Below are positions 13,664 to 15,165 of a stretch of DNA of 64,000 nt, in pieces; within the stretch, counting starts at the first letter, position 1; each line of letters starts with the position of its first letter. Both the position numbers and the translations under genes were made by a program. The notes under the pieces are model-generated. The model saw nothing but the letters and a program-made list of their open reading frames with translations. It searched no databases and had not been told where the DNA came from. This DNA comes from Anaeromyxobacter oryzae (GTDB taxonomy: Bacteria > Myxococcota > Myxococcia > Myxococcales > Anaeromyxobacteraceae): positions 3,344,481 through 3,408,480 of the forward strand of contig NZ_AP025591.1 in NCBI RefSeq assembly GCF_023169945.1, given 5' to 3'.

Positions 13664-13806
13664 TCCGGCGGACGCGCGGAGGCCGGTCCGCTGTCGCGGA
13701 GGAAAGCGCGACCGCGCCCCCGCTCGGGACACGCGGCCTCCGGCGCGCGTCACCATGCTCCGCCCGGATCGAGCCCGCGACCTCCGGAGCGGGCAGGAGA
13801 ACGCCG

Positions 13807-14244
13807 ATGACGCCCATGCCCATGTCCATGCCGATGATGTCCGGGTCCCCCGCGCCGATGCCGATGTCCATGCCCATGGGCATGCCGATGATGGCGCCCA
13901 TGCCGATGGGCATGGGCATGGGCGGCATGCCGATGATGCCGATGCCGATGCCCATGGGCGGGATGATGCCCGGGATGATGCAGGGAATGATGCCCGGCAT
14001 GATGCCGGGGATGGGCATGCCCGGCGGCATGATGATGATGCCGATGCCGATGATGTGCCGGATGTCGATGGAGATGACGAAGGACGGGATGGCCTGCACC
14101 ATCATGCCGATGGACGCCGCCAGCATGGAGATGCTGAAGGAGCGGTGTCAGGCGATGATGGCGATGATGGCGATGGGGATGCCCGCCATGATGTCGTGCG
14201 GCGGCATGCCGATGATGATGATGTCGCCGATGTCGAACGCGTGA
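13807..14244 (+). CDS. Extremely methionine-rich protein with a Cys-containing C-terminal segment
   Basis: 145 residues of which 62 are Met by my count (about 43%). Residues 1-82 are almost only Met, Pro and Gly in MP, MG and MMPG steps. The C-terminal part (about 83-145) is less repetitive, with four cysteines (CRMSME, MACTI, ERCQAM, MSCGG) and an amphipathic MEMLKERCQAMMAMMAMG stretch, and looks like a folded small domain. ATG at 13807 has an SD (AGGAG) 7 nt upstream. No signal peptide is evident. Met/Cys sulfur clusters suggest soft-metal (Cu(I)/Ag(I)) or oxidant sensing or scavenging; this is inference only. No metal transporter gene adjoins it. Confidence 0.75.
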   Translation: MTPMPMSMPMMSGSPAPMPMSMPMGMPMMAPMPMGMGMGGMPMMPMPMPMGGMMPGMMQGMMPGMMPGMGMPGGMMMMPMPMMCRMSMEMTKDGMACTIMPMDAASMEMLKERCQAMMAMMAMGMPAMMSCGGMPMMMMSPMSNA

Positions 14245-14298: not shown

Positions 14299-14955
14299 CT
14301 ACCCGATGGTCTCCGCGTACGTCATGACGAGGTAGAGCACCGCCTCCGCGTCCGAGACGTTCCGGTACGCATGCGGGACGTCGGCGTGGAAGAGGATGGC
14401 GTCGCCCGCGCCGAGCGGCGCGCGCTCGCCGTCCACGACGATCTCCACCGTCCCCCGGGACACGACCAGGTTCTCGGTCGTGCCGGGCGGGTGCGCCTCC
14501 GCCCGCTCCTCGGTGCCCGGCGCGATCCGCAGCTCGTAGAGCTCGACCCGCCTCGGCGCGTCGAAGGGGAAGAGCGCGCGCGAGCTGAAGGCCCGATCCT
14601 GGCTGGTCAGGATCTTCGCGTCGCTCGCCCGGAGCACCTGCACCTCGCCGCCGGCGGCGCGCCCGGTGATGAGCGCGGAGAACGGCAGGTCGAGCGCGCT
14701 CGAGATCTTCCAGACCACGTTGATGGACGGCGCGCTCTGGCCGAGCTCGATCTGGGAGAGCATCGCCCGGGAGACCCCGGACGCGCGCGAGAGGCGCTCG
14801 AGGGAGAGGCCGCGGCGCATCCGGAGGCGGCGGAGGTTCGCGCCGACCACCGCGGTGAGGTCCCCCTCGCCGCCGGCCGCGGATCCGCCCGGCCGGGCAG
14901 CCGGCGCCCGCGCGGCGCCCTCTTCGGGCCGGTCCGGCTTCAGGCCACGGGCCAT
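14299..14955 (-). CDS. XRE-family regulator with C-terminal cupin domain (PuuR-like architecture)
   Basis: 218 residues from the ATG at 14955. A helix-turn-helix of the XRE type lies at about 30-90 (LRRLRMRRGLSLERLSRASG, then SRAMLSQIELG.SAPSI), and a cupin at about 150-210 (EERAEAHPPGTTENL, GDAILFHADVPHAYRNVSD). The cupin probably senses a small ligand. The family includes PuuR, the putrescine-pathway repressor, which fits the upstream ureohydrolase gene. The start overlaps the end of the 56-residue ORF by 16 nt; a GTG at 14967 is an alternative start. Target genes are not known. Confidence 0.88.
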   Translation of the reverse strand: MARGLKPDRPEEGAARAPAARPGGSAAGGEGDLTAVVGANLRRLRMRRGLSLERLSRASGVSRAMLSQIELGQSAPSINVVWKISSALDLPFSALITGRAAGGEVQVLRASDAKILTSQDRAFSSRALFPFDAPRRVELYELRIAPGTEERAEAHPPGTTENLVVSRGTVEIVVDGERAPLGAGDAILFHADVPHAYRNVSDAEAVLYLVMTYAETIG

Positions 14956-15110
14956 ACCGGCACCCACCAGACGAGCACCGGCACCACGCGCGGCGCCGGC
15001 GCGAGCGCCATCGAGGGGCGCGGCATCGGACGAGGCGCCGGGGCGGCGCTCGCCCGGCGGGCCCGGCGGTAGCTCTCGAGGTCGACGACGACTGCGGCGG
15101 ACGCGCTCAT
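14940..15110 (-). CDS. 56-residue leader ORF co-transcribed with the XRE-cupin gene
   Basis: Small ORF starting ATG at 15110 and ending TGA at 14942-14940. The product begins MSASAAVVVDLESYRRARRA, continues with a Pro/Ala/Arg linker and ends VLVWWVPVWPVA. The VVDLxSYRRARR type of N-terminus occurs in other small proteins of GC-rich bacteria as far as I recall. It has no SD, but a TTGACA / GATATT promoter places the transcript start at the ATG, so it would be read as a leaderless message and could couple translation into the regulator gene. The Trp-rich tail is hydrophobic and might touch the membrane. Function unknown. Confidence 0.5.
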   Translation of the reverse strand: MSASAAVVVDLESYRRARRASAAPAPRPMPRPSMALAPAPRVVPVLVWWVPVWPVA

Positions 15111-15116
15111 GGGAGG

Positions 15117-15145
15117 AATATCCGTTAAAGCGGAGAGTCTGTCAA
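15117..15145 (-). promoter_or_regulatory. Sigma-70-type promoter for the leader ORF and XRE-cupin gene
   Basis: Minus-strand TTGACA (15145-15140, a perfect -35), a 17-nt spacer and GATATT (15122-15117, 4 of 6 at -10). The expected transcription start falls at the A of the ATG at 15110. Confidence 0.7.
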
Positions 15146-15147
15146 CC

Positions 15148-15165
15148 CGTCCGTCGCGACGGACG
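15148..15165. promoter_or_regulatory. Perfect 18-bp palindrome next to the promoter, candidate operator
   Basis: CGTCCGTCGCGACGGACG is fully self-complementary and ends 3 bp upstream of the -35 hexamer. It is also about 30 bp after the stop of the ureohydrolase gene, so a terminator role is possible, but there is no loop and no T tract. Autoregulation by the XRE-cupin protein is the simplest idea. Confidence 0.5.

Follow-up and report, generated by a model that had tools for sequence, protein, structure and literature searches.

A methionine-rich protein encoded beside a SutR-like regulator in Anaeromyxobacter oryzae: a probable sulfur-regulon member and a possible methionine reserve

Bacterial reserves of carbon, nitrogen and phosphorus are well known, and some bacteria store elemental sulfur; to our knowledge, no methionine protein reserve has been described in bacteria. 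Proteins with much methionine are familiar from other contexts. MrpX is a periplasmic, HOCl-scavenging Met-rich peptide that is exported and belongs with msrP and an ECF sigma system, and copper proteins of the CopC, PcoE and CusF type contain clustered Met and some Cys. In plants, the Met-rich seed storage proteins, such as the 2S albumins and the maize zeins, serve as a protein-bound sulfur reserve (PMC3420316, PMC7419676), and a Met-rich low-complexity region is described in yeast Pbp1/ataxin-2 (PMC8394241). SutR (YdcN) is the sulfur-utilisation regulator of E. coli (Yamamoto et al. 2015, as cited in PMC8464067 and PMC6094552), and a palindromic binding motif of YdcN is reported in the former (PMC8464067). 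The open-access literature on Met-rich proteins in myxobacteria and on copper in Myxococcus contained no bacterial storage example, and our search of that literature for a bacterial Met/sulfur storage protein returned plant and other storage proteins and none of the bacterial kind, which is weak evidence.

The window analysed here is a stretch of 64,000 nucleotides of the A. oryzae genome (contig NZ_AP025591.1, positions 3,344,481 to 3,408,480), and on its + strand, at 13807..14244, it carries a gene for a 145-residue protein with a Met/Pro/Gly arm and a conserved C-terminal domain. Translation of 13807-14244 reproduced the counts of the preliminary description, namely 62 Met in 145 residues (42.8%) and four Cys, and gave a mass of 15.56 kDa and a pI of 4.9; sulfur makes up 13.6% of the protein mass, with 66 S atoms per 15.6 kDa chain. 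The other 59 of the 60 genes called in the window all stay below 5% Met (runner-up 4.7%, median 1.6%). The N-terminal arm covers about residues 1-81 and the conserved domain is encoded at 14050-14241 (+). In one detail the protein differs from that description: Met is also frequent C-terminally (24 of 64 residues) and thus not confined to the arm. Like MrpX, the protein has a very high Met content; unlike MrpX, it lacks an export signal, since its N-terminus (MTPMPMSMPMMSG), read by eye, shows neither a basic region nor a long hydrophobic core, and a sulfur regulator adjoins its gene instead of an msr/ECF sigma system. With the CopC, PcoE and CusF type it shares the clustered Met and some Cys, whereas it has no visible signal peptide, no copper operon and no Pfam, NCBIfam or PDB match. 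With Pbp1/ataxin-2 it shares a Met-rich low-complexity stretch, whereas its Met fraction is far higher and a sequence relation is not expected. The likeness to the plant 2S albumins and zeins would lie in a sulfur reserve function, and the protein differs from them in being bacterial and cytoplasmic and in having no visible sequence relation to them.

Genome search found homologues, one copy each, in 30 of 195 Myxococcota genomes: the window genome, A. oryzisoli (so that the gene is present in two of nine Anaeromyxobacter genomes) and 28 genomes of another family in the same order. A Sorangium genome also carries a homologue, found by a peptide-pattern scan of about 85,000 species genomes; this was the one search to cover the phyla beyond Myxococcota, where more distant relatives may exist. 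At the sensitivity used, no relatives were found on plasmids, phages or viral contigs, and scans of the protein against Pfam and NCBIfam gave no match. None of the 31 loci examined has a broken reading frame, the third positions of non-Met codons are 93% GC, and the C-terminal domain, pooled over 11 pairs, has a pN of about 0.044 and a pS of about 0.185 (hand-summed ratio of about 0.24), while the window/A. oryzisoli pair by itself gives a pN/pS of 0.60 on few sites. The pooled ratio indicates purifying selection on the protein, and because of this ratio, the intact frames and the codon composition, 13807-14244 is, as judged from sequence evolution, a real gene under selection and not a chance ORF. 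The Shine-Dalgarno AGGAG (13795..13799, +) lies 7 nt 5' of the ATG at 13807, and the earlier remark that the gene has a proper ribosome-binding site and start and is probably translated is supported. Frameshifts in sister genomes and loss of the conserved start or C-terminal segment had been named beforehand as signs against the gene; the 31 loci contain no frameshift, and the homologues keep both the start region and the C-terminal segment. A Cys segment free of the Met-rich arm, which had been suggested as something to look for, did not occur in the homologue set found, where arm and domain were never apart.

Across the family the arm consists of Met (50%), Pro, Gly and Asn in varying length and order, and despite these variable arms the 31 members retain 38-50% Met each, so that the high Met/Cys content expected of the storage class is kept under drift. 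In the Sorangium homologue (L005:4455-5252) the arm is made of some twenty near-identical MMGMMPQ repeats, which suggests a recent tandem expansion. The C-terminal part is conserved over about 61 residues with 15 invariant columns, one of them Cys. The Cys at columns 7, 16 and 50 of the domain is replaced mostly by Met, and in two members Cys and Met are swapped between columns (M16/C18, against C16/M18 in the others), as if total sulfur outweighed a fixed ligand site. Such an interchange, like an arm that drifts freely, is what selection on content would allow. The conserved C-terminal domain with its invariant Cys suggests something more than passive storage, and it may drive assembly of the protein, mark it for degradation or have a chemistry of its own. 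An AlphaFold2 model of the domain, of moderate confidence (pLDDT 77, pTM 0.46), has a beta-beta-alpha-beta-beta order, and Foldseek found nothing for it at E <= 0.001, the best results being partial matches with E about 1. A PDB profile match of the Met-rich protein to an antitoxin covered 27 residues with an E of 0.31 and was taken as chance.

Convergent with the Met-rich gene lies a gene for an XRE-HTH plus cupin regulator (14299..14955, -), which we call SutR-like from its Pfam domains (HTH_3, 1.3e-14, then Cupin_2, 1.6e-15), its synteny and its identity to E. coli SutR (33% identity and 55% positives over 182 aa); its top NCBIfam match, PuuR, stays far below the cut-off (48 against 211 bits). 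It resembles E. coli SutR in that the HTH and cupin halves both align and in its link, here, to sulfur genes, and differs from it in a longer N-terminal tail, the convergent Met-rich gene, the predicted operator TCCG-N6-CGGA and the presence of two paralogues in the window genome. An XRE-cupin regulator is the next downstream gene, convergent and within about 150 bp, in 27 of the 31 Met-gene loci; at a 28th locus it lies about 5 kb from the Met gene, in A. oryzisoli it is gone from the locus and a paralogue is found elsewhere in the genome, and two further Met-gene genomes have it elsewhere. All 30 genomes with the Met gene possess the regulator, which was found at E <= 1e-40 in 78 of 193 genomes. 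Within genus g26, the Met gene and the regulator occur in the same seven genomes and in no others, and because the genes adjoin, this indicates gain and loss of the locus as a unit and not independent events. The second SutR-like paralogue of the window genome (genome positions 4,090,451-4,091,095; L098 4952-5599) has the same dyad in front of it, and paralogues of this type occur in nearly all Anaeromyxobacteraceae searched. Upstream of the regulator gene and overlapping its start with its end lies a small Trp-rich ORF of 56 aa (14940..15110, -; DLESYRRARR...VVPVLVWWVPVWPVA), recognised by gene calling and from relatives; it precedes the regulator in several relatives and is kept in A. oryzisoli despite the loss of the regulator there.

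The regulator and the Met-rich gene also share an operator-like element, which is the context that the preliminary description had missed. The dyad TCCGCTGTCGCGGA, followed by GGAAA, lies before the Met-rich gene at 13687..13700 (+), and 30 of the 31 loci have a dyad (exact or as a TCYG / YRGA variant) in the corresponding position, where it ends 93-154 bp before the Met-gene start and is followed by GGAAA in most cases. At the regulator, the dyad TCCGCTTTAACGGA (15121..15134, -) sits inside the operon promoter, between TTGACA and GATATT, and a second one, TCCGTCGCGACGGA (15150..15163, -), just upstream of the -35; a perfect TCCG-N6-CGGA precedes the regulator in 27 of 27 adjacent loci. Further TCYG half-sites recur upstream of the Met-gene dyad across the 31 loci at offsets of -20/-21 (n=29), -41/-42 (n=17) and -61/-62 (n=16), against a chance level of about 1 per offset on average; the array of the window is poorer, with the closest upstream half-site at about -23. 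At two loci that have no adjacent regulator (L035, L042), both arms of the Met-gene dyad have changed in concert, giving TCTG-N6-CAGA, and these are also the loci whose protein has Cys and Met exchanged. Readings of the GGAGGAAAA element as an RNA hairpin or an ECF -35 were dropped, since sulfur genes and the promoter of the regulator have the same dyad. Matches to the Met-operator pattern at L118, L121, L122 and L124 lie inside genes and were treated as chance, and the pattern was also matched intergenically at L119, L120 and L123.

A regulon scan, which is pattern matching only, found 17 distinct TCCGYTNNNRCGGA sites in the A. oryzae genome versus 9 for the reversed pattern. Seven of the 17 lie inside genes and were treated as chance, and eight of the ten intergenic sites stand in front of a sulfur gene, one of the two regulator genes or the Met-rich gene, namely cysG with sulfite/nitrite reductase, sbp, metK (two sites), cysK, the Met-rich gene, the regulator and its paralogue; the remaining two (L147, L152) stand before genes with no evident sulfur link and were scored as misses. 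Related genomes have the pattern in front of cysK, a second cysteine-synthase-like gene, sbp, cysG, metK, metH and cysE, and it is also found before an ATP-sulfurylase-like gene (sat) and a sulfonate-transport region. One Anaeromyxobacteraceae genome (G018, L116) has a regulator paralogue within a sulfur cluster of metY-thrC-cysH type, with genes for O-acetylhomoserine sulfhydrylase, threonine synthase, sulfur carriers and CysH, and with dyads before the regulator paralogue and before cysH. Ten to twenty target proteins were identified with Pfam and NCBIfam, and names were given by eye to the sulfur-carrier genes, a second sat and a second cysteine synthase. Because the dyad stands before sulfur genes in the A. 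oryzae genome and in related genomes, it is best read as the operator of a sulfur regulon, to which the Met-rich gene very probably belongs. The role of the protein, which had been left open at first, is thereby narrowed. We infer that the neighbouring regulator binds the dyad, on account of the autoregulation geometry at its own promoter, its co-occurrence with the Met-rich gene and its kinship to SutR, and the two paralogues of the window genome may share the operator.

The position of the dyad relative to the promoters suggests a sign of regulation, which at each promoter is a prediction. A predicted -10 of the Met-rich gene, CATGCT (13754..13759, +), follows the operator by 53 bp, and A. 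oryzisoli has the same hexamer at the same distance. Over the family, the distance from the end of the operator to the predicted -10 is 41-42 bp in 10 loci and 52-53 bp in 18, the window among them, with three of 31 loci (L027, L028, L035) outside both classes; for the Met gene, both the -10 and the -35 are themselves weak predictions. The gap of 11 bp between the classes is about one helical turn, and the operator centre would fall near -60 or -71, as in a class I activator layout. The -35 regions of the 52-53 bp type look weak, which fits activated promoters, where this is expected. In the promoters of several sulfur genes, the -35 (TCCGCTTGAC) falls within a TCCG site, and such sites also sit in the spacer and recur near +1, as in a repressor layout. 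The exceptions are cysG, the cysK of one relative and the sbp of another, where the strict dyad lies further upstream; at cysG, weaker sites still cover the promoter.

On these grounds we propose the following as the best reading. The SutR-like regulator would bind TCYG half-sites with a spacing of about 21 bp, frequently in pairs of the form TCCG-N6-CGGA. With sulfur in good supply, it would cover and repress the promoter of its own operon and those of the genes for sulfate uptake, sulfite reduction and cysteine and methionine synthesis, whereas from the array upstream of the -35 it would activate the Met-rich gene, and the surplus sulfur would be stored as protein-bound methionine. When sulfur runs short, the regulator would release the DNA, synthesis of the Met-rich protein would stop, and proteolysis would return the Met. 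For a protein that is nearly half methionine, holding sulfur in bound form would be the natural function, and to spend 66 S atoms on each chain while sulfur is scarce would defeat the purpose. Whether the gene encodes such a cytoplasmic methionine/sulfur reserve protein is, in our estimate, evenly balanced, and the fuller proposal, a dedicated bacterial protein sulfur reserve made of methionine and induced by the same regulator that shuts off sulfur assimilation, is put forward more tentatively.

Other functions have to be weighed against a reserve. It is possible, and in our view unlikely, that the protein is a sink for oxidants or reactive sulfur, whose Met would be oxidised and then restored by methionine sulfoxide reductases, a cycle that has been proposed for MrpX; the very high Met content would suit such a role, many bacteria couple redox control to that of sulfur, and the sulfur regulator would then ensure synthesis when Met is affordable. 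However, no msr gene or ECF sigma factor adjoins the gene, as seen from the called genes of the window and, partly by eye, in relatives; the protein shows no signal for export, and at the sites examined the operator is common to assimilation genes and not to known stress genes. We doubt even more that it is a sulfur-state signalling or condensate protein, in which the Met-rich arm would self-associate and change upon Met oxidation, as in Pbp1/ataxin-2, and the folded C-terminal domain would have a partner, perhaps the regulator. The combination of a low-complexity arm with a conserved domain of moderate-confidence fold and the linkage to one regulator speak for this, whereas the arm drifts freely, no partner domain was recognised and four loci have no adjacent regulator.

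Binding of copper or silver, the function suggested in the preliminary description, gains no support from the locus. Clusters of Met and Cys are possible ligands of soft metals, and the A. oryzae genome has four Cu-type P-ATPase genes above the cut-off, but all four are far from the Met-rich locus, and, as already stated in that description, the neighbouring genes include no copper genes. The operator in front is of the sulfur type, the Cys columns interchange with Met and the spacing within the arm is not conserved; nothing but composition speaks for the copper reading, and a cytoplasmic buffer for Cu(I)/Ag(I) or other soft metals is improbable. Finally, that the true gene lies on the other strand as a His-rich ORF, or that the Met ORF is not expressed, is very improbable, since the in-register antisense frame that is open in 31 of 31 loci, with a His-rich ORF in A. 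oryzisoli, is the mirror expected where ATG reads CAT and antisense stops are few, and the sense strand has a Shine-Dalgarno in most members, the low pN/pS, the high GC3 and a conserved operator and promoter upstream. A long His-rich antisense mirror of the Met gene is seen at L004:4227-5210 (-), where misannotation as a histidine-rich protein is possible.

The sulfur reserve, if true, would be the sulfur counterpart of cyanophycin for nitrogen and of polyphosphate for phosphorus. Against it, most Anaeromyxobacter lack the Met-rich gene, so that such a store would be dispensable. If the reserve is real, the protein level should track the sulfur supply in the direction opposite to that of the assimilation genes, which makes for a simple test case, and the SutR-type regulator in Myxococcota gains a clear predicted operator and regulon.
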